Source: a virus
Strand: one strand, 5' to 3'
Virus record (IMG/VR): IMGVR_UViG_3300036780_000264
Coordinates: 1-33,563 of that record
Length of the DNA: 33,563 bases
The translations under genes were made by a program, and so were the position numbers. Below the pieces are notes generated by a model, which had not been told where the DNA came from, did not search any database, and saw nothing but the letters and a program-made list of their open reading frames with translations. This document shows, in pieces, positions 2,699-29,754 of this stretch; the first letter of the stretch is position 1, and each line of letters begins with the position of its first letter.

Positions 2699-3355
2699 AT
2701 GCGGCAATGGTCCATCTATGCCCTGCACGATCCGCGCGACCGGCCGTTCTATGTCGGCGTGACCAATGACTGCCGCCGCCGGCTCCGCGAGCACAAGAAG
2801 GACCTCGGCTATCGGCCGCGCATGGTCGTCCTCGAAACCGGCCGGGGCGACCGCATCGCCGCCGAACGCCGCTGGATCGAAACCTATCGCCTCGAAGGCA
2901 TCGCCCTGATCAACAAGACCGCCGGCGGCAACGGCCTGCAATTCGCCAGCGCCCAGACCCGCGCGCTGATCTCGGGCCTCCAGAAGGGGCGGCCGAAATC
3001 TGCAGCAAGCAAAGCGAAGAGCTCGGCAACGCAGAAGGGCGTACCAAAGAACTTCTCGCCAGATGCACGCCGACGCATGGCCGTGACGCAGTTCAAACCG
3101 GGTCACGTCATCTCGCGCGATGTCTATTTGGCAAACCGAGAGGCAATCGCGCGGTGGTGGGATGGGCTGTCACCGGAAGAGCGCACGGAACGAGCCCGAG
3201 CCCGATCCAAGGCCGAATGGGATGCGCGCGACGCCAAGGAGCGTGCTGCAGTCGGCCGTAAAATCACCGCCGGCCGGCTGGCGGCATCGACCCCCGAGGA
3301 ACGCTCCGAACGCGCGCGCAAAGCAGCTCTTGCCGGGGTGGCAAAAAGACGCTAA
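2699..3355 (+). CDS. GIY-YIG homing endonuclease (plus strand)
   Basis: A 218-residue protein with the GIY-YIG nuclease fold at the N-terminus: S-I-Y at 5-7, Y-V-G at 18-20, the RRRLREH helix and ERRWIET carrying the likely catalytic Arg and Glu. The rest is a basic DNA-binding tail with NUMOD3-like helices (residues about 80-125) and two similar 'SPEER-ERAR' / 'TPEERSERARKAA' segments near 155-215. It is a free-standing homing endonuclease that would cut a related genome without the insertion. It lies opposite to the operon, between DUF6065 (start 18 bases away, divergent) and DUF2163 (stop nine bases away, convergent). Its 3' half is visibly less GC-rich than neighbours. No clear Shine-Dalgarno precedes the ATG. 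Confidence 0.88.
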   Translation: MRQWSIYALHDPRDRPFYVGVTNDCRRRLREHKKDLGYRPRMVVLETGRGDRIAAERRWIETYRLEGIALINKTAGGNGLQFASAQTRALISGLQKGRPKSAASKAKSSATQKGVPKNFSPDARRRMAVTQFKPGHVISRDVYLANREAIARWWDGLSPEERTERARARSKAEWDARDAKERAAVGRKITAGRLAASTPEERSERARKAALAGVAKRR

Positions 3356-8136: not shown

Positions 8137-11100
8137 GAGCGCAGCTTCAGCGAGCCATTGCGGTAGGCGTTTTGCAGCCATGCCTTCATCGTGTCGCCCT
8201 CGCGCGTCAGCAGGGCGTTCAGCCCCATCGCCTCGGGGGCGTTGATCGTCGGGGCGAAATTCAGGTGGACCTGGCTGTCGCCGCCGGCCTGGTTGTTGGT
8301 GGTGTTGCCGCCGAGGCCAAAGCCGCGGGCGCGCGCCTCGCCGGCAAAAGCCGCCGGGACCACGGCCTCGCCCTTGTGGATGTTGGCGACCAGGTCGTGG
8401 CTGATGTCCCAGGCGCCGACATCGAGTTTGGGGATATTGGAGAACAGCGCCGAGATGCTGGCCAGGCCCTCGCGCATGCCGACCGGCGCCGAGCTGTTGG
8501 ACTGCGCCTTCATCGAGAACAGCGCGTCGGTCGGCGACATGGCGCGGGCGCTGCCGCGCGCGGTCGGGGCGCCCTGCAAGGCGGTGCGCAGATAGCCGGC
8601 CTGCGCCGCCGGGATGATCATTTCGCCCTTGTGGATGATGGCCGGCATGTCGCCCGGAATTTCCCAGGCGCCAGTGTCGAAGCCGAACGGCTTGGGCGTG
8701 ATGGTCTGGATGTCGATCGCGGCGACGATCAGCGTCGAGCTGGTCGTCTGCGACGCGGTAGTGGCGGCGGTCTGAGCGAGGGTCGAGGCCTCATTGGCGG
8801 CGGTGCCGCCGGTGGTGACCGCGACATTGCTGGCGGCGCCGACGGTGGTCGCTGCGGTATCGGCGCCGGTCGCCGCGACATTGGCGGCGTGGCCGGCGAC
8901 ATTGCTGGCGGTCCCGGCGGTGACTGCGGCGACGACCGGGGCCGAGCTGGCGGCGGCGGCGCCAGCGCCGCCCGCTACCGCGCCGCCGGCTGCTGCGGCA
9001 CCGCCGCCAATCCCGCCGCTGATCCCGCCGAGGAGCTGCCCCGGCAATTGCAATGCGCTGCCGAGCAGCTTGAACGGCATTTGGATCAGGCTGCCGAGCA
9101 TTCCGAAGATGCCGCCGCCGCCGCCGGCAGCCCCGCCGGCAGCGCCGCCGAACAGGCCGCCGAACAGGCCGCCGCTCGATCCGCCGCTGCCGCCGCCGAA
9201 GATCCCGCCGAGCAGCTGCCCCGGCATTTGCAGGACCGAGCCGAGCAGCTTGAACGGCATCATGATCAGGTTGCCGAGCATCCCGAAGATGCCGCCGCCG
9301 CCGGCAGCACCGCCCAAGCCGCCAAGTCCGCCGGCGCCGCCCAGCGCGCTGGTCGCACCGCCCGCTGCCGCGGTCGTGCCGGCAGTCTGAAATTCGGCCC
9401 CGGCGGTGACCGCCGAGGTTCCGGCGGTGGTCATGCCGGCGCCGGCCGTGGTGGCGCCGACGCCCGCCGTCGTCATCCCGGTCCCGGCGGTCGTCCCGCC
9501 GACACCCGCCGTGGTCATCCCGGTCCCGGCAGTGGTTGCTGCGGTGCCGGTGGTGCTGAGTGCAGTGCCGCTTTGCGCCGCGCTCGACGCGGTCGAGCCG
9601 AGATCGGTCGCAGCCTTTTGTGCCGATGAGCCGAGCTGCTGCAGAGCCGCCGGGCCGGTCGCCGAACTGCCGGCCAAGCCGGGTATCGGGCCGACCGCAC
9701 CGCCGCTGATGCGGGTAAGATCAGTGTTGACCCCGCCAAGCGTCATCTGGCCGCTTTGCACCTGGCTGGACAGGCCGTAGGCGTAGTTGTGCTCCCATGC
9801 GGTCATCGCTTCCGGCGAGCCCGGCAGGAGACCGGTCATCTGGGTACCCGGCGGCGTCATGCCGGGCATCCCGTAGCCGATCGGAGGAAGCTGTCCGTGG
9901 GTGGTCGGGAACAGCTCCGCCATCATCGACTTGTCGTCGTAGAGTCCCGGATAGGACAGTGAGCCGGGCTTGATCCCGGCAACGGTCCCGGCCACGCCGC
10001 CCGCGCTGGCCGTGGTGCCGGCCGTGGCAAATTCCGCCCCGGCCGTGGTTGCCGCCGTCCCGGCAGTGGTCATGCCGGCGCCGGCAGTGGTCGCTCCGGC
10101 CCCCGCCGTGGTCATCCCGGCGCCGGCGGTCGTCGCCCCGGCGCCAGCCGTGGTCATCCCGGCGCCGGCTGTGGTTGCTGCCGTCCCGGTGGTGGCGAGC
10201 GCGCTGCCGCTCTGCGCTGCGCTCGAAGCGGTCGATCCCAGGCTCGACGAGGCCTTTTGCGCCGCCGAGTCGAGCTGCGTCAGCCCGCTTGACCCGGTCG
10301 ACAGCCCCGCGCCGGGATCGTAGCCGAACTGGTTGGTCGCTGCCTCGGGGCTGAAATAGCCGGGCTTATTGCTGCCCAGCAGCGGCGTGCCGGGCAGGTC
10401 GGGCCCGCGCGCGGCATCCAGCTGGGCGAGGCTGAGATTGGGCTGGTTGAACAGGCCTTGCGCCTGCGCCTGTTCATAGGTCGGGCCGATCAGAAGATCG
10501 GGGTTGGCCTTCGAATCGCCGCCGAACAGGCCGGAAAACAGCCCGCCGCTGCTGGTGCTGGAGGCCGCTTCCTTGGCGGCGGCAGGTGCCGCCGCCACGC
10601 CCATCGAGTCGAGGACCGAGCCGACATCGCCGCCCTGAAAGGCGCCGTTGACCCCAGGCGTCAGCGGCGCTTCGTCGGTGCCGCCGAAGCCGAACATTTT
10701 GCCGAGGCCGGAAAACAAGCCGCCGGAACTGCTCGAGCCGAGCCCGAACAGGCTGGTGATCGGGCTGATCAGGTCGCCGAGCAATTTGAACGGCGACATC
10801 AAGAGGCTGCCGAGCCCGCTCAGCAGGCCGCCGCTGGCGGCCGAATTTGTCTCCAGCGCGGCGCTGTTGGTCAGCGTCGCCGCGGTATTTCCAGTGGTCG
10901 CCAGATTATTGGCGGTGGTCGCCACACTGGCGGTGCTGCCGCCGATGCCGCTGAGGTCGGAGAGGCCGGCCAGCGCCTTCGGCAGCCCGGCGATGACGCC
11001 GAACAGTTTGGAGACGCCGGTGATCGCCGCCTCGATCGGGCTGTTCGGGAACAGCCCGCCGATCTGCTGCGCCTCGGAGACGACCGGCGAGGTGTCGGCG

Positions 11101-21595: not shown

Positions 21596-21804
21596 CCTTG
21601 CTGCGCGGCAGCGGCAGGGACCCGAACTGGGGGTTCCGGCTTGGCGATCGTCTTTACGGGCTGCAGAGCGCCGCCAAACTGGCGACGATGCAACGGATCT
21701 GCGACGCTTACGGATCAGTGCCAGCGGGCGATGTGGAGGTCGTCGCTGAGCGAGCCGACCCGGCAGCCGACCAGGCGCCAGGCGAGCGCCAGAGCGGCGC
21801 GTGA
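21592..21804 (+). CDS. Hypothetical small protein, 70 residues, overlapping the methyltransferase 3' end
   Basis: Not recognised. It is coupled to the preceding gene by ATGA. The first 45 residues (WGFRLGDRLYGLQSAAKLATMQRICDAYG) are credible; the last 25 are Ala/Glu/Asp-rich and lie antisense to the methyltransferase C-terminus over 90 bases. The C-terminal part may therefore be unimportant or the gene recently truncated or extended. Confidence 0.4.
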   Translation: MTLLRGSGRDPNWGFRLGDRLYGLQSAAKLATMQRICDAYGSVPAGDVEVVAERADPAADQAPGERQSGA

Positions 21805-22422
21805 GAACAGCGAGATATGCCCGTTGCGCGGCGCCAGGTACCACCAGTCGACGCCCTGATCGTCCGGCATCAGCAGGGTCGAGAACAGCACCACACCCGA
21901 TGCCGACATCTTGCTGGCGAGGGCGGCGATCGTCGCCCGCGGGTCGGGGACGTGCTCGAGCACCTCGAAACAGCTGACCAGGCCGAAGATGCCGGCCGGC
22001 AAGTCGTCCTCGCCCGGCGTGAAGGGATCATAGGAGTGCGCGTCGAAGCCGCGCTGGCGCAGCAATTGGGCGAGCCGTCCATTGCCGCCGCCATAGTCGA
22101 GGCAGGTCATGCCGGGCTTGACCCGGGTGGCGATCAGGTTGGCGTTGGCGCGCGGCCGGCGGTCGCGGTAGTCGGGGTCGACCGCGTCATATTCGGCGTT
22201 GTAGATGCGCTCGCGGAACTCGGCGAGCGACCAGCTGTCGAATGCGTCGGTAAAGACGAACCGGCATTGGCCGCACTGGCGATAGTAGACCGGGGTGCCC
22301 GACAAGGCCGGGCGCAGGCTGTTGCATTGCTTGGCGAAGTCGACCACGCCAAACAGCGGGGCATCGCCGCCGCAGATCTTGCAAGGGGGTGTCGAGGATG
22401 GCGCCGTGCGCGTCGTCAGCAT
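21715..22422 (-). CDS. SAM-dependent methyltransferase with N-terminal zinc ribbon
   Basis: A 235-residue class I methyltransferase. The N-terminus carries C14-x2-C17 and C50-x2-C53, resembling the putative zinc-binding module that precedes sugar C-methyltransferases. SAM motif I follows as CLDYGGGNGRL (about 108-118), an acidic motif II region, FEVLEHVPDP (motif near 160) and FSTLLMPD. This combination (zinc module plus Methyltransf_23-like domain) is common in enzymes acting on sugars in LPS or antibiotic pathways. ATG 22422 has GAGG six bases upstream. It lies next to a glycosyltransferase gene, which fits a role in modifying a glycan, but the substrate is unknown. Confidence 0.8.
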   Translation of the reverse strand: MLTTRTAPSSTPPCKICGGDAPLFGVVDFAKQCNSLRPALSGTPVYYRQCGQCRFVFTDAFDSWSLAEFRERIYNAEYDAVDPDYRDRRPRANANLIATRVKPGMTCLDYGGGNGRLAQLLRQRGFDAHSYDPFTPGEDDLPAGIFGLVSCFEVLEHVPDPRATIAALASKMSASGVVLFSTLLMPDDQGVDWWYLAPRNGHISLFSRAALALAWRLVGCRVGSLSDDLHIARWH

Positions 22423-22439
22423 CGGCCCGCCTCGTCAAT

Positions 22440-22455
22440 ATATCAAAATTGATAT
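22440..22455. promoter_or_regulatory. AT-rich inverted repeat between divergent genes
   Basis: ATATCAA-AA-TTGATAT is a perfect 7-bp inverted repeat with a 2-base centre, in the most AT-rich 20 bases of this GC-rich neighbourhood. It lies 17 bases before the minus-strand methyltransferase start and 5 bases before the ATG of a plus-strand zinc-ribbon frame. It has the size and symmetry of an operator for a dimeric repressor and could also supply -10 elements. Confidence 0.5.
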
Positions 22456-22460
22456 GGGCA

Positions 22461-22742
22461 ATGCTGCCGCTCGAATGGTTCTGCCGCGAGTGCGGCAAGG
22501 GCCATCTCGCCACGCCGGGCGGCGGCGCGTGCCGCGAATGCGGCAGTGAGCGGCTGGTGTTCCGGGCGCACCCGAGCCGCCTGCGGGCGCTGCGGGCGCC
22601 GCCGCCGGCGGTTGTCAAATCGCCGTTTATGTCGGATTTCGTTGCGCCGCAGTCTCTGCAACCAAAGCCGAAACCACGGCGTCGGCGTCACCCGGGTCGC
22701 GCGGGATCGCCGGGGCCACCCGGCTCGGCCGGGAGACGGTGA
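22461..22742 (+). CDS. Possible zinc-ribbon protein (plus strand)
   Basis: A 93-residue frame. Its N-terminus looks like a true zinc ribbon: W-F-C8-x2-C11-GKGHLATPGGGA-C24-x2-C27-GSERLVF. The second half (from about residue 56) runs antisense to the glycosyltransferase C-terminus and is Pro/Arg/Lys-rich, which could be a basic tail or an artefact. The ribbon lies in the 204-base gap between minus-strand genes, where no minus-strand gene is convincing. The Shine-Dalgarno is weak. An AT-rich inverted repeat sits just upstream. Could be a DNA-binding regulator; real-gene status is about even. Confidence 0.45.
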   Translation: MLPLEWFCRECGKGHLATPGGGACRECGSERLVFRAHPSRLRALRAPPPAVVKSPFMSDFVAPQSLQPKPKPRRRRHPGRAGSPGPPGSAGRR

Positions 22743-24192
22743 CCGGCTCGGGCAATAGCGCCAGCGACACGCGGTTGATCAGCTCGGCCCAATCGCTTGG
22801 CTGCGACTGCTCCCACAGGCTGACCGAGCGGTACCACGGCGTATCGCTGCGGCCGCGCAGCCAGCGCCAGCAGCGCGGGTGGGCGAGCAAGGCAAAGCAC
22901 GGCACGTCGAGCGCCCCGGCCAGATGGACGACCGCGCTGTCGATCGAAATCACCAGGTCGAGCTGGCGCAGGAGCGCGCCGGTATCGGCAAAGTCGCCGA
23001 TCAGCGGAGCCAGGTCGTCGACGACGTGGCCGGCGCCGTGCGCCGCGATGTCGGCGCTGCGCGGCCCGTATTGCAGCGAGTAAAGGCTGACCCCGGGGAT
23101 TTCGGCCAGCGGCAGCATCGCGGTGAACGGCATCGAGCGGTAGAGGTCGAGCTCGTGGTGGGTCGATCCGGCCCAGACGATGCCGACCGCCAGGCGGGTG
23201 CCGCGCTTGCGGGTGATCTGCGCTACGGCGCTATCCGGCAAACGCAGGTAGGGCGCCGGCGGGACCGTCTCGGGGGTCAGCTCGAAAAACCCCGGCGCCG
23301 ACAGCATCGGCGACCAAAAATCGAAAACAAAGCTGTCGCGGCTGCGATGCAATTCCTTCCAGTCGATGACCGCGTCGGCGAGATCGGAGGCGGCGAACAG
23401 GCGCAGCAATTCCGGCCGATCGGCGACCGTCACATGCGCGCCGCGCTGGCGCAGCAGTCGGGCAAACCGGACGAATTGCAGGCTGTCGCCAAACCCCTGC
23501 TCGTGATGCAGCAGAAAGCGGGTGCCGGCGATCGGCTCGCCCTGCCAGCGCGGGATGCCGAAATGCCAGACCGGAAACTTGTAGAGGTTGGCCCAGCGGC
23601 CCTCGTTGGCGCGGAACCCGCCCTGGTAGTCGCCGGCGGCCAGCATCGCCAGCCCATAATCACCCATCAGCCGCTTGTCGCCGGGCTTCAGGTGAAACGC
23701 CGCCAGATGGCAGCTCATGGTCAGCTCGGGATCGCCCATCGCATAGGCGGCGGCACCCAGGTTGTGCCAGGCCGCGTAATTTTCGCGGTCGAGGGCGAGC
23801 GCGTGCTGGAACGCGTCGGCGGCTTCCGGGAAGCGCTGCAGCCGCATCAGCACGGTACCGAGGTTGCCCCAGGGGATCGGGCTTTCGGGATGCTGCAGGG
23901 CGAGGCTGCGCCGGGCGCAGACCAGCGCGGTATGGTAGTGGCGCTGGCGCACCATGATTTCGCCGATGTTGCCCCACACCACCGGCAGCAGCGCGTCGAT
24001 CTTCAGCAGGCGCTGATAAATCGCCAGCGCGCCGACGTCGTCCTTGGCCTTCCAGGCGGCGATCGCCGCGTCGAACAGCGCGTTTACCGCCGGATCGCGA
24101 TGCTCGATCCGGGGCTGCGGCGGGGACGGCGCGAGGTCGAGAAAGTTGAACTCGGCACCGACCGCGAGATCGGCCAGCTCGGCCGCGCTCAT
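22627..24192 (-). CDS. TPR-containing glycosyltransferase (GT9/GT41-like)
   Basis: A 521-residue protein. Residues about 35-190 are tetratricopeptide repeats (WGNIGEIMVRQRHY, WGNLGTVLMRLQRF, WHNLGAAAYAMGD). Residues about 215-490 form a GT-B glycosyltransferase end: FLLHHEQGFGDSLQFVRFARLL, VGIVWAGSTHHELD, RSMPFTAMLPLAE, LVISIDSAVVHLAGAL. The TPR-plus-heptosyltransferase-like layout is widespread in proteobacteria. The TPR part probably binds a protein acceptor, so protein glycosylation (for example of virion or host surface proteins) is a reasonable guess. It is coupled to the gene upstream by ATGA. The C-terminal 35 residues are disordered-looking. Confidence 0.85.
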   Translation of the reverse strand: MSAAELADLAVGAEFNFLDLAPSPPQPRIEHRDPAVNALFDAAIAAWKAKDDVGALAIYQRLLKIDALLPVVWGNIGEIMVRQRHYHTALVCARRSLALQHPESPIPWGNLGTVLMRLQRFPEAADAFQHALALDRENYAAWHNLGAAAYAMGDPELTMSCHLAAFHLKPGDKRLMGDYGLAMLAAGDYQGGFRANEGRWANLYKFPVWHFGIPRWQGEPIAGTRFLLHHEQGFGDSLQFVRFARLLRQRGAHVTVADRPELLRLFAASDLADAVIDWKELHRSRDSFVFDFWSPMLSAPGFFELTPETVPPAPYLRLPDSAVAQITRKRGTRLAVGIVWAGSTHHELDLYRSMPFTAMLPLAEIPGVSLYSLQYGPRSADIAAHGAGHVVDDLAPLIGDFADTGALLRQLDLVISIDSAVVHLAGALDVPCFALLAHPRCWRWLRGRSDTPWYRSVSLWEQSQPSDWAELINRVSLALLPEPVTVSRPSRVAPAIPRDPGDADAVVSALVAETAAQRNPT

Positions 24193-24476
24193 TCCTTGGC
24201 GGGGCGTTTCTCGGCCGGAGCGTCGGTCGCCTGGCTCTCGCCGGCTACCGCCGGGCTGTCGCCGGCCGCCGGCAGCGGCGGCCGGGCGCCTTCGCCTTTG
24301 ATCGGCTCGCCCGGTTGGAGGCTCTGTACAGCGGTACAGCCGTGCGCCAGCAGCTCGCCCTCATCCTGCGGAAGGATGTCGTGCAGGACGCCCTGCTCGT
24401 CGGCGCCGTAGTGCTGGCCCGAGCGGCAGACAAAACGCTGGCCCGGACCGCCGGGGGCTACGAGATCACGCGGCAT
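24189..24476 (-). CDS. Hypothetical small phage protein, 95 residues
   Basis: The N-terminal 50 residues form a small domain (LVAPGGPGQRFVCRSGQHYGADEQG, ILPQDEGELLAHGCTAV) of a type often found as tiny phage proteins near structural genes; no function is known to me. The C-terminal 45 residues are Pro/Ala/Glu-rich and likely disordered. ATG 24476 has AAAGGA six bases upstream. The stop overlaps the glycosyltransferase start (ATGA). Confidence 0.65.
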   Translation of the reverse strand: MPRDLVAPGGPGQRFVCRSGQHYGADEQGVLHDILPQDEGELLAHGCTAVQSLQPGEPIKGEGARPPLPAAGDSPAVAGESQATDAPAEKRPAKE

Positions 24477-24544
24477 GTTGGTCCTTTCCCTGGAGGCAGT
24501 GGCGGAAAGCATAGCGCAGTCCGTCCGCCACGTAGGCGCCGAGC

Positions 24545-24736
24545 TCAAGCATGGAACAGCACCGCGCGCACGGCGCAGTCCTTGGCCTCCAAAAGTTTCC
24601 GCAGCGCCGTAGTCTTTTCCGGGTTGTCGGGCAGTCGATCGACGATCTGCGCCAGTTCGCCGAACGGTCGGCTGACCGCCTGCAGGTTCTCCGGCAGATG
24701 CGCAAACTCGAAGAACTGCAGCAGATAGTGCCTCAC
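24545..24736 (-). CDS. Acb2/Tad1-like small helical protein, possible cyclic-nucleotide sponge
   Basis: A 63-residue protein, two-helix in appearance: F8-F9-E-F11-A-H13-L-P15, QAVSRPFGELAQIVDRLP, then NPEKTTALRKLLEAKDCAVRAVLF. The layout aromatic-x-H-x-P / amphipathic helix / 'P-x-(S/N)-x-E-(K/R)-(S/T)-x-AL-x-K-L-x-EA' is the one I associate with the Acb2/Tad1 hairpin domain. Members of that group bind cyclic oligonucleotide or cyclic ADP-ribose signals and block CBASS or Thoeris defence. That identification is by remembered motif, not by search. The start is GTG 24736, overlapping the methyltransferase stop (GTGA). An upstream ATG at 24778 would overlap the methyltransferase and adds non-conserved residues. 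Confidence 0.6.
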   Translation of the reverse strand: MRHYLLQFFEFAHLPENLQAVSRPFGELAQIVDRLPDNPEKTTALRKLLEAKDCAVRAVLFHA

Positions 24737-25419
24737 AGCACTGGCCCCGATCCGATCCCGTCGCGGGCTTTCGGCCAATCCGTGGTCAGCGCGCCGCCGT
24801 TGCTGGCAGCACCGCCGGTCTTGTGCATGACGATCATCACTTCGGCGGCGACGTTGGCATGGGTCTCGACCGCTGCAGCCAGCTCATCGTTGCTGACTTC
24901 GCCGTTTTTCAGGGCTTGCGCCCAGCGCGGCAGCAGGCTGATCGTCACCGTGTCGATCTCGAAATCGATGTCGCGCTCGAGCGCCACCGTCGGCCACGGC
25001 AGATTCATCTCGAGCACCTGGTGATTGAGCCGCTTGCAAAAGCTCTGCAGCAGCCCGACGGTCACCGGCCGCACCCGCGGGTCGCGCCAGAAATCATCCG
25101 AGCGCATGTGCGGCACGACGACGGTCAAGACGCCGCCTGGTTCGAGCACGCGATGGAGTTCGGCCATCATCTCAATGAACCAGTCGCCGCTCGGGGCCAG
25201 TGTGTGCAGGACATGCACCAGCCGAACCTCGTGCACGGCGCCGTCGTCCCACGGCCAGGGCAGCGTTTCGAGGTCCCAGACGAGGTCGGGCGCGGTTTCC
25301 GGCGCCCGGTCGACGTTGGTCCAGCCGCTCGGCGCCGGGCGCCAGCCCGAACCGAGGTTGAGGCGCAGTTTGCCGTCTACCGGCGGCGGGTCCGCCGGCA
25401 GTTCGGTGGTCTCGGTCAT
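24733..25419 (-). CDS. Class I SAM-dependent methyltransferase
   Basis: A 228-residue Methyltransf_11-like protein. SAM motif I is LRLNLGSGW near residues 18-26, followed by GWTNVDR with the acidic residue that binds the ribose, a DLVWDLETLPWPWDDG segment, LHRVLEPGGVLTVVVPHM and a lid region SDDFWRDPRVRPVT. 'KLNLGSG...GWxNVD' enzymes are frequent beside glycosyltransferases in polysaccharide clusters. ATG 25419 is preceded by AAGGAG eight bases upstream. It is coupled to the Acb2-like gene downstream. The C-terminus is Gly/Asn-rich. The substrate is not evident. Confidence 0.8.
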   Translation of the reverse strand: MTETTELPADPPPVDGKLRLNLGSGWRPAPSGWTNVDRAPETAPDLVWDLETLPWPWDDGAVHEVRLVHVLHTLAPSGDWFIEMMAELHRVLEPGGVLTVVVPHMRSDDFWRDPRVRPVTVGLLQSFCKRLNHQVLEMNLPWPTVALERDIDFEIDTVTISLLPRWAQALKNGEVSNDELAAAVETHANVAAEVMIVMHKTGGAASNGGALTTDWPKARDGIGSGPVL

Positions 25420-25438
25420 TCGTGGCTCCTTGGTGGGG

Positions 25439-25702
25439 TTAGGGGTCGGCAATCCGTTCGAGGATGCCGGCGGTAACGGTTTTCGGCGGGTTGAGGTGCT
25501 GCGCGATCTCGGCGCGGACGCTGCGCAACAGCCCCTGCATTGCCCAGATAAAGACCTCGTCCGGGCCGTCGAGATCGAGCACGATGCTTTCGACCAGCAC
25601 GTCGCGGCCGACGCAGTCGCAGGCATAGCGGGCGGTGATCAGCAGCGGCCGAAACGGGCGCTCGGTCACCGCCGGCTGGTGCGGGTTCAGCGGGTCGGCC
25701 AT
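25439..25702 (-). CDS. Hypothetical phage protein, 87 residues
   Basis: Not recognised. It looks like a small alpha/beta protein (RPFRPLLITARYACDCVGRDV, VESIVLDLDGPDEVFIWAMQG, LLRSVRAEIAQHL). The ATG at 25702 overlaps the stop of the gene upstream by one base (TGATG), typical of translational coupling. It ends 19 bases before the methyltransferase start. Confidence 0.6.
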   Translation of the reverse strand: MADPLNPHQPAVTERPFRPLLITARYACDCVGRDVLVESIVLDLDGPDEVFIWAMQGLLRSVRAEIAQHLNPPKTVTAGILERIADP

Positions 25703-25995: not shown

Positions 25996-26177
25996 TGTCG
26001 TCTCCGTGGTGGGGCCGGGCGCGGCCAGGGTTCCGGCGGGGTGCGGCCGAGCTCCGCCGGCGTGCGCTCGCAGCCGACGCAGATCGGTTCGCGCCGCAGG
26101 GTCTCGGCATAGCAGATGTCGCCGTCGCGTAAGACGCACGGGGTCATGTCGGAGCGCGCATAAGGACAGTCGATCAT
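25992..26177 (-). CDS. Small cysteine-rich protein, 61 residues
   Basis: Contains five cysteines (C4, C14, C22, C33, C36), the last two as CVGC, with a Pro/Arg-rich C-terminus. A metal-binding knuckle is possible. ATGA overlaps at both ends (with the GIY-YIG gene and with the exported-protein gene) are the main support. Not recognised as a family. Confidence 0.5.
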   Translation of the reverse strand: MIDCPYARSDMTPCVLRDGDICYAETLRREPICVGCERTPAELGRTPPEPWPRPAPPRRRQ

Positions 26178-26854
26178 ATTCGCCCCAAACGATAACGGCG
26201 CAGACCGGCCGAGATGTTTGCACGATGCCGATCTGTGAGGATCTTGCCTGTAAGCGTAGCAGCAATCTTCGCACGGTGTTCTGGGCTCTTGGTCAGCCCC
26301 TTTTTCGCTCGGCTTCGCCTGGCCGAGGTTTCAGCCGATTCTACTGGATTGCGGCGGCGGTGGTCTCGCTGCCCCTCCGACATCTTACGTCTGGTGGCCG
26401 CGGAATGTGAGAGCCCAAGGTTCCACGCAGGGCGCCCCTTGCGGCTGGCGCTCATCTTGGCGCGCGTCTCTGACGATGCCTTTCGCCCGGTGGTAGCTAT
26501 CGCTATCCGTCTCCTGGTGGCGGCCGAGCGGAGCGTAGTTGCCACCGTGCCGGCGAAGGGCGCTCGGTTATAGCCATGCCCGCGTTTGGCAGCATGGAGG
26601 TTGTCGATCCAGTGCTGCTCAGCTGTGATCCGCTCGGCGTTATTTTCGCAAACCTGCAAAATCGTGAAGCTGAAAGCTAAGGCGCCGTATTTGCGCCAGG
26701 CGTGTTGGAGAAGGATGCTGTGATGCCGCGCCTCGTTGAGAGCCTGTTTATGGCGCCGCCAGCGATCGCGAATGTTTCCTGACGACCCGACATAACTTCG
26801 GCCGGTGACCAGGCACAGGATGCGATAGACGCCGGGAATGGCTTTATAAGGCAT
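26174..26854 (-). CDS. GIY-YIG homing endonuclease with NUMOD repeats (minus strand)
   Basis: A 226-residue protein. The nuclease domain has G8-V-Y10, Y21-V-G23, the RDRWRRHKQALNE helix, KYGALAFSFTIL and AEQHWID with the metal-binding Glu. Residues about 110-220 are basic NUMOD3-type helix-turn modules (SSETRAKMSASRKGR, SAATRRKMSEGQ, SPEHRAKIAATLTGK, DRHRANISAGLRRY). It sits in the operon direction, 12 bases after the tail terminator gene, and is coupled to the next small gene by ATGA. The DNA is visibly less GC-rich than neighbouring genes, which points to transfer. It differs from the plus-strand GIY-YIG gene in sequence, so the two were probably acquired separately. Confidence 0.9.
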   Translation of the reverse strand: MPYKAIPGVYRILCLVTGRSYVGSSGNIRDRWRRHKQALNEARHHSILLQHAWRKYGALAFSFTILQVCENNAERITAEQHWIDNLHAAKRGHGYNRAPFAGTVATTLRSAATRRRIAIATTGRKASSETRAKMSASRKGRPAWNLGLSHSAATRRKMSEGQRDHRRRNPVESAETSARRSRAKKGLTKSPEHRAKIAATLTGKILTDRHRANISAGLRRYRLGRI

Positions 26855-28424: not shown

Positions 28425-28936
28425 GCCGGAAACAAGTCGAAGGAACGCTGCGCGGTGGCGACGGCAAAACCGATGCCGCCCAACAATTCAAAGCCGCCCC
28501 AGACCGGCAGCAGGACGCCATTGAATAGCGAGAAGGCGATCTGCCAGATGCCGATGGTGGTCCACACCAGCGCGCCGAGGGCGCAGGCCGTCGGGCACCA
28601 GTAGCTTTTGCCGCCAAAGAAGAAGACTGCAACGATCGAGGCACTGCCATGGCCGAGCGCCGCCCAGCCGAGCAGGACGGGATCAATTCTCATGCCGGTC
28701 AACAGCCGCCAGGTCGAGCTGGCGCCGACCAGCCCCGGCCACAGCAGCCCGGCACCGTAAGCGATGCCGTAAAGCCCCATGCACAGTTGCCACCCGTTTG
28801 CCCCCTTGGGGGCACGCCAGCGCGCCCGCTTTGCGGGGCTGCGGAGTTGGCGCGAAGTGACGAGCGCGGCGCTGCCGAGCGTCGCAGCGACGACCAGCGC
28901 GGCGCCCAGCGGTATCCAGATGCCAGGGCCGATCAT
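28421..28936 (-). CDS. Multi-pass membrane protein, 171 residues
   Basis: Four or five predicted transmembrane helices (about 5-27, 50-72, 84-108, 117-140, 143-163) separated by a basic loop after the first (RQLRSPAKRARWRAPKG). Contains FFFGGKSYWCPTACALGALVW. No recognised family. It is one of a run of overlapping membrane protein genes inserted between two head-tail joining genes. Candidate roles are holin, superinfection exclusion or partner of the ethylene-receptor-like protein; none is shown. Confidence 0.65.
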   Translation of the reverse strand: MIGPGIWIPLGAALVVAATLGSAALVTSRQLRSPAKRARWRAPKGANGWQLCMGLYGIAYGAGLLWPGLVGASSTWRLLTGMRIDPVLLGWAALGHGSASIVAVFFFGGKSYWCPTACALGALVWTTIGIWQIAFSLFNGVLLPVWGGFELLGGIGFAVATAQRSFDLFPA

Positions 28937-29364
28937 TGTCTTAGATGCCGCCAGATCGCGACGCTATGGACGATCGCCAGAATGATGCGCGGCGCTTGAT
29001 CGACCAGAATAAAGAGCCATCCGCCCTGCGGCACATAGCCGTCGGCATATTGCCCAAGGACGACTTCCCGCCCGGCGCCGATCGCCGGGATCACGGCCAG
29101 TAATTGCTGCGGCACCAGCGCCGCGGCGCACCACAGCGGCGCAGCGATCGTGCCGCCGATCACCCATAGCGTCAGCAGCGATGCGACCAGAAGCGCCGCG
29201 ACAAGAACGGCGTGGTCCGGGATCACCAGCAGCAGCGTCGCGACCCCGGTCGACTTGTCGGCGTGGTTCGAGAACGCAAGCGCCGCTGCAATAATGAGGT
29301 GCTTACAGGTGACGCAGCAGAAGACAGCGCGCGCAGTCCATTCAGTCGTCCGGTCGCAGATCAT
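28933..29364 (-). CDS. Multi-pass membrane protein, 143 residues at most
   Basis: Three or four hydrophobic segments: CKHLIIAAALAF (about 20-31), HAVLVAALLVASLLTLWVIGGTIAAPLW (about 51-78), a weaker one near 80-95 and WLFILVDQAPRIILAIVHSVAI (about 115-136). 'GQYADGYVPQGGW' before the last helix is a compact loop. The first 23 bases overlap the end of the ethylene-receptor-like gene, and the N-terminus is Cys-rich, so the true start may be slightly downstream. Followed by ATGA coupling. Family unknown. Confidence 0.6.
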   Translation of the reverse strand: MICDRTTEWTARAVFCCVTCKHLIIAAALAFSNHADKSTGVATLLLVIPDHAVLVAALLVASLLTLWVIGGTIAAPLWCAAALVPQQLLAVIPAIGAGREVVLGQYADGYVPQGGWLFILVDQAPRIILAIVHSVAIWRHLRQ

Positions 29365-29725
29365 CGGTCGACTCCTTCAGCGCGGAGTGCTGACGTTCGA
29401 GGATCTGCACGATGCCAAGCGGCAGAAAATAGAGCGTGGCGAGACTGACGATCGCGGTCAGGAACACTTCGATTGCCAACTCCCAATAGTCCGGGACCCA
29501 GAGCACCAGGACCTCGAGGAGATGGCTCAACCCGCACAGAAAAATGAAGGCGGCGAACAGCGCGCCGAGCCAGCGCGGCACCGCCAAGACCTCGCGGCTT
29601 GTCAGCAACAGCATGCACGGGATGCCGAAATAGGCGAACGCCGTCCCCAGATGACCGATCACGGTCAGCCACAACAGATCGGGATCCCAAGCAAGGCAAT
29701 AGCCGTGCGGCGTGAACTGTTGCAT
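29342..29725 (-). CDS. Stand-alone ethylene-receptor-like transmembrane domain
   Basis: A 127-residue protein with three transmembrane helices (about 17-41, 51-75, 80-105). It matches the ethylene-binding domain of ETR1-type receptors and cyanobacterial homologues: PHGYCLAWDPDLLWL at the start, the A31-Y32-F33-G-I35-P36 core, and A-F-I61-x-L-C64-G-L-S-H68 in helix 2. C64 and H68 correspond to the copper ligands Cys65/His69 of Arabidopsis ETR1, Y32, I35 and P36 align in place, and I61 matches Ile62. The position of the essential Asp25 is His25. The chain ends soon after helix 3 with a charged tail; no GAF or kinase domain follows. ATG 29725 is preceded by a GGGGGG stretch. Copper binding is likely; ethylene binding is uncertain. 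Confidence 0.75.
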   Translation of the reverse strand: MQQFTPHGYCLAWDPDLLWLTVIGHLGTAFAYFGIPCMLLLTSREVLAVPRWLGALFAAFIFLCGLSHLLEVLVLWVPDYWELAIEVFLTAIVSLATLYFLPLGIVQILERQHSALKESTDDLRPDD

Positions 29726-29754
29726 TTACCCCCCAGGTGCTTGCCGACCCTAAG

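Follow-up and report, generated by a model that had tools for sequence, protein, structure and literature searches.

In plants, cyanobacteria and proteobacteria, the sensor domains of ethylene receptors are known to feed signals into kinases and cyclases, and the locus analyzed here raises the question of what such a domain does when a virus encodes it on its own. The window, that is, the whole stretch of DNA analyzed, is a virus record of 33,563 bases, and the gene lies in it as an ORF of 127 aa with an ATG start and a G-run (29729-29734) immediately upstream.

A stand-alone ethylene-receptor sensor domain

The original prediction of an ethylene-receptor-like membrane domain was borne out by a match to the Pfam profile ETR1_N (PF25487; E 4.9e-21), in which residues 17–109 aligned with profile positions 2–95 of 97, scoring 75.2 bits against a curated cut-off of 27 bits. 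The gene and its relevant codons, all on the minus strand, are as follows (the codons for His25, Cys64 and His68 were read directly):

29342-29725 (-), stand-alone ETR1_N (ethylene-receptor sensor) membrane protein, identified from PF25487, its relatives and an AlphaFold2 three-helix model
29705-29707 (-), codon for His7
29696-29698 (-), codon for Cys10
29651-29653 (-), codon for His25, CAT
29534-29536 (-), codon for Cys64, TGC
29522-29524 (-), codon for His68, CAT
29465-29467 (-), codon for Val87, at the position of Lys91

The window protein was compared with Arabidopsis ETR1. As had been claimed, the two proteins have the same numbers at D25, Y32, I35 and P36, and I61, C64 and H68 of the window protein, one lower, correspond to I62, C65 and H69; helix 1 aligns gap-free with that of ETR1 family receptors, and the motif PHGxC is common to the window protein and the bacterial ETR1_N members. 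The residues reported as required for ethylene binding (in part by Wang et al. 2006) are D25, Y32, I35, P36, I62, C65 and H69. The reported number of such residues is seven (PMC11819568), and the window protein retains six of them (Y32, I35, P36, I61, C64 and H68), the seventh, Asp25, being replaced by His, which leaves the set incomplete. Mutation of D25 in AtETR1 is reported to abolish ethylene binding (PMC11819568), and a change from Asp to Asn to lower affinity about 100-fold (PMC13012798). Lys91, the partner of Asp25, is also replaced, by Val87. Nothing but a short tail follows helix 3 in the ORF, which has no covalently joined output domain, so the description of the protein as kinase-less and carrying His in place of Asp25 was accurate. 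ETR1 (Arabidopsis), SynEtr1 (Synechocystis) and AzoEtr1 (Azospirillum) share with it the three-helix domain and Tyr32, Ile35, Pro36, Ile62, Cys65 and His69; unlike them, the window protein lacks a GAF, PAS or kinase output, has His for Asp25 and Val for Lys91, is encoded by a phage, and has relatives in lysis-type neighbourhoods.

An AlphaFold2 model built from 11 viral sequences (mean pLDDT 86.8) has three long helices, at residues 15–42, 51–76 and 80–123, in agreement with three hydropathy peaks indicative of transmembrane helices. Hydropathy and loop charges together suggest an N-out/C-in topology, and the C-terminal tail contains three basic and six acidic residues. Searches of PHROGs and PADLOC gave no match for the ETR1_N protein; among solved structures there was no relative by sequence, and by fold the best match had an E-value of 1.0. 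The ORF is not a chance reading frame, since its frame, ligands and His25 are all retained in two close relatives (L009 and L010), with dN of 0.16–0.23 and dS of 0.70–0.88, as expected under purifying selection. The window protein is thus a real stand-alone sensor domain of the ethylene-receptor type.

Viral relatives and origin

A pattern scan of IMG/VR confirmed 13 viral loci, to which a later scan added L029, and every one exceeds the PF25487 family cut-off; the loci come from metagenomic contigs that IMG/VR classes as viral, of which many are fragments, and the groups they form are small. Group A (L009/L022, L010 and L011/L023, with L011 and L010 appearing to be one phage) is 69–71% identical to the window protein and has His25 throughout, and so provides the phage homologues with His25 that the original prediction had proposed looking for. 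Group B (L014–L020 and L029) consists of proteins of about 125 aa with the motif ERYSQHxxCLTNDP and with Asp, Asn, Gly or Tyr at position 25. L012 has Asp25, and L013, a contig of 349,660 bases, has both Asp25 and Lys91. The L013 gene (7956-8375(+)) encodes a canonical stand-alone ETR1_N domain, on a contig that also bears apparent tRNA-gene arrays and two distant GH108 genes.

Among the 14 distinct viral proteins, 13 have the stand-alone form, and the only fused one is that of L021, whose partner is a STAS domain. The same family search retrieved more than 120 matches in 194 cyanobacterial genomes, nearly all in frames longer than 300 aa, with three full-length matches in short frames of about 200 aa; this comparison covers cyanobacterial genomes. 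Most of the annotated relatives on plasmids are kinases or proteins with PAS domains. Among isolated phages, tblastn against 50,697 INPHARED records gave no match, and for the window protein none even at E 10. Group A patterns had no match in a collection of bacterial and archaeal genomes. In the literature collection covered, a search combining ethylene-binding domains or receptors with phages or holins returned only chance co-occurrences of words and no report of a phage-encoded member.

In a phylogenetic tree, the viral rows group with plasmid proteins from Novosphingobium, Blastomonas, Rhodovastum, Azospirillum and Rhizobium, so that their neighbours are proteins of Sphingomonadales, Rhodospirillales and Rhizobium plasmids. 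A single group holds all viral rows except L013, with weak support (88/63), and the pairing of L012 with group A is well supported (99/92); the placement is provisional because the alignment has few columns and the branches are long. On the basis of this tree, the phages most likely took ETR1_N from an alphaproteobacterial receptor, and the stand-alone form recurring in several phage lineages probably represents one family of such derivation.

This clustering also means that the host could itself have an ETR1_N kinase, and the phage protein might then act as a decoy, forming mixed dimers with the host ethylene-receptor kinase and blocking or altering its output. Receptors of the ETR1 type are described as functioning as dimers (PMC12643061, PMC6566107). 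Nevertheless, the window protein is only about 32–47% identical to known bacterial receptor domains, and such a decoy does not predict the linkage to lysis genes described below. Nothing was found that points to the mixed dimers previously suggested, and we regard this role as improbable.

The predicted copper site and positions 25 and 91

Residues Cys65, His69, Tyr32, Ile35 and Ile62 (ETR1 numbers) are invariant across all 14 viral rows. An N-terminal pair, His7 and Cys10, is conserved to the same degree as the copper ligands, being invariant in the 13 rows that reach that region, and position 25 is occupied by His, Asp, Asn, Gly or Tyr. Since the ligands and the His7/Cys10 pair are invariant while position 25 varies, the copper site was seemingly kept in the phages and the function of Asp25 was not. 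We would expect the window protein to bind Cu(I). These invariant residues (C64, H68, H7 and C10), along with the variable position 25, would also suit a protein that serves, during infection, simply to bind Cu(I) or to buffer it in the membrane; neither a copper chaperone nor a copper ATPase occurs among the neighbours examined, and we consider copper handling the least probable of the roles weighed here.

We tabulated positions 25 and 91 in a profile-based, deduplicated set of cyanobacterial, plasmid and viral domains, 131 of which have Cys65 and His69 intact. Asp25 was accompanied by Lys or Arg at position 91 in 102 of the 131 domains and by another residue in five; for domains with a residue other than Asp at position 25, the corresponding numbers were eight and 16. 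Loss of Asp25 is thus associated with loss of Lys/Arg91 (Fisher p 8e-11, a value inflated by shared ancestry), and this coupling fits the Asp25-Lys91 bond that has been proposed (PMC11819568, PMC13012798). None of the eight domains with His25 (three from phages and five from cyanobacteria) has Lys or Arg at position 91, which makes plausible the suggestion that His25 is an additional, neutral copper ligand; in such proteins, we infer, His25 may complete a neutral His-Cys-His site for Cu(I), in which Lys91 has become dispensable. These natural variants at positions 25 and 91, including His25, are ready-made material for the question of what part Asp25 and Lys91 play in the binding of copper and ethylene.

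His25 is not specific to phages, because bacteria also have natural variants of Asp25, including His in cyanobacterial diguanylate cyclases. The domain scan covered one of these cyanobacterial proteins, with the architecture ETR1_N-PAS-GAF-GGDEF (L263:1741-3498(+)), which has His25, Leu91 and intact copper ligands; proteins of the same type occur in L264–L266, and together they form a natural branch of His25 receptors outside phages. Like the window protein they have His25, keep Cys65/His69 and have lost Lys91, which in them is Leu or Ile; unlike it, they are diguanylate cyclases of 585 aa and are distant in the tree. A single origin of His25 for phages and cyanobacteria is disfavoured by the tree, which favours two, yet it is not rejected by an AU test (p 0.166).

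Gene neighbourhood and a possible role in lysis

The ETR1_N gene leads an overlapping run of four genes for membrane proteins, with overlaps of 23, 4 and 4 nt; gene calls in the neighbourhoods followed a simple longest-ORF rule complemented by inspection by eye. The three downstream genes are:

28933-29364 (-), 143-aa multi-helix membrane protein with four predicted helices, its start sharing 23 nt with the end of the ETR1_N gene; a 67% identical homologue occupies the same overlapping place in L022
28421-28936 (-), 171-aa multi-helix membrane protein, overlapping the preceding 143-aa gene by 4 nt; homologues of about 60% identity occur in the same order in L022 and L010
27957-28424 (-), 155-aa protein with an N-terminal helix followed by a highly charged coiled coil, as judged from hydropathy, with a 4-nt overlap at either side; a 73% identical homologue occurs in the same order in L010

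A Pfam search with the 143-aa and 171-aa proteins gave no match. The last gene of the cassette overlaps one with a neck/tail-completion match, placing the cassette among head-tail genes; the claim that the domain belongs to a head-tail operon therefore holds for the window. It does not hold for most relatives, where the closeness of the gene to lysis genes suggests a different role. In L022 and L010, the homologues are not at the head-tail junction but follow the tail-tip gene (in L010, PF13550 with Rcc01698_C); L010 lacks the 143-aa gene and the L022 contig stops before the coiled-coil gene. Because the order is the same, we conclude that the cassette travels largely as a unit.

The distance from ETR1_N to an endolysin gene is 0.1–2.3 kb in most contigs, and the endolysins belong to five different families. 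A GH108 gene lies 1.5–1.7 kb from ETR1_N in five group B contigs, and in L012 the start of a GH108 endolysin overlaps the ETR1_N stop; a GH25 lysozyme is found 2.3 kb away in L010, after the cassette and two PAS ORFs, and the endolysins of L029, L030 and L028 are of the GH19 type, Phage_lysozyme2 and an N-acetylmuramidase, respectively. Pooled across six contigs or groups, the chance of such proximity is 0.003, a rough and post hoc estimate. No endolysin linkage was found at the window fragment, L013 or L021. In addition, ETR1_N usually has beside it a gene encoding a membrane protein of one helix and a coiled coil; this gene is directly downstream in the group B contigs, and L028 has one whose protein has the same layout.

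Another gene of these neighbourhoods, P157 (L026:9538-10011(+)), encodes one N-terminal helix and a beta-sandwich in which two Cys-Pro motifs are conserved, and was found only in the seven group B contigs having the cassette. The matches of its model (pLDDT 78.5) were all to generic beta-sandwich folds and none to a known copper protein, and a similarly laid-out gene of L012 is not a proven homologue (hhalign probability 0.2%).

We favour, at a probability of roughly 40%, a role for the ETR1_N protein as a lysis-module membrane protein of the holin or antiholin type that has a copper site. After its probable acquisition from an alphaproteobacterial receptor, the stand-alone copper-site sensor domain would act as a small three-helix, N-out/C-in protein of the inner membrane within a cassette of membrane proteins, and, along with the coiled-coil protein that is anchored in the membrane and encoded by a gene close by, would control lysis. 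The lambda holin S105 has three transmembrane domains in an N-out/C-in arrangement, and holins are typically shorter than 150 aa with a charged C-terminus (PMC6116005); phage lysis cassettes often contain several holin-like proteins, including N-out/C-in ones with one transmembrane domain and large cytoplasmic tails (PMC9671378). This reading is favoured by the likeness of the window protein to class I holins (127 aa, three transmembrane domains, predicted N-out/C-in topology, charged C-terminus) and by the resemblance of the coiled-coil partner to members of multi-holin cassettes. Class I holin genes lie near an endolysin gene; most relatives have one close to ETR1_N, and none was found within the 33.6 kb window fragment. 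Unlike class I holins, the window protein, whose holin function is putative, has conserved metal-ligand residues. Holin profiles gave no significant match in Pfam (best, Phage_holin_3_6, E 0.12) and none in PHROGs; in BFVD, the fold of a Gordonia phage holin matched too weakly (E 0.12, TM about 0.6) to be retained.

Several observations argue against a role in lysis: the window cassette lies among head-tail genes of a fragment lacking an endolysin gene, the canonical stand-alone domain of L013 is distant from the GH108 genes of its contig, other holin-like candidates, judged by eye, exist in L012 and L028, and unrelated accessory genes also gather in lysis regions. This last point leads to the reading of the protein as an accessory (moron) membrane protein for superinfection exclusion or lysogenic conversion, parked near lysis genes. 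The cassette does change place, from the head-tail junction in the window to a site after the tail-tip gene, in the lysis region, in relatives, and an integrase in L024 indicates a temperate relative; on the other hand, the occurrence of five endolysin families and a recurring coiled-coil partner argue for a functional link, and the ETR1_N proteins have no PADLOC hit.

PAS domains are the customary partners of ETR1_N in bacterial receptors. Two stand-alone PAS ORFs, 56% identical to each other (L010:8282-8653(+) and 8676-9212(+); E 5.8e-13 and 1.3e-15), are placed in L010 directly after the coiled-coil gene and before the GH25 lysozyme gene. They would be in keeping with a split signalling module, with ETR1_N as the sensor of Cu(I) or a small ligand and separate coiled-coil and PAS proteins relaying the signal, much as AzoEtr1-like bacterial receptors combine ETR1_N, PAS and kinase in one chain (PMC11819568). 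The PAS proteins, however, have relatives neither in the window nor in the contigs of group B, and a kinase, cyclase or other output was not found nearby. We hold the accessory and split-module readings to be about equally probable, both unlikely, and next after the lysis role, with receptor interference and copper handling less likely.

A further point against the lysis role is that a plain holin would not need invariant copper ligands. One speculative version of that role, to which we give little weight, is that Cu(I), and perhaps ethylene where Asp25 and Lys/Arg91 are kept, gates the triggering of a holin or antiholin; if it is true, host lysis would respond to a metal or a plant gas. If a family of phage proteins consists of ETR1_N alone and is tied to lysis, the domain would have been put to a new use, and an effect of copper or ethylene on the timing of lysis becomes a directly testable question.

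Other genes of the window deserve mention. Two GIY-YIG endonuclease genes, probably encoding homing endonucleases, are found among the tail genes (26174-26854(-) and 2699-3355(+)), one of them with NUMOD3. Inside the tail operon, the region 21715-25560(-) contains two methyltransferase-like genes and a gene combining TPR with a glycosyltransferase-9-like domain, perhaps involved in glycan modification.
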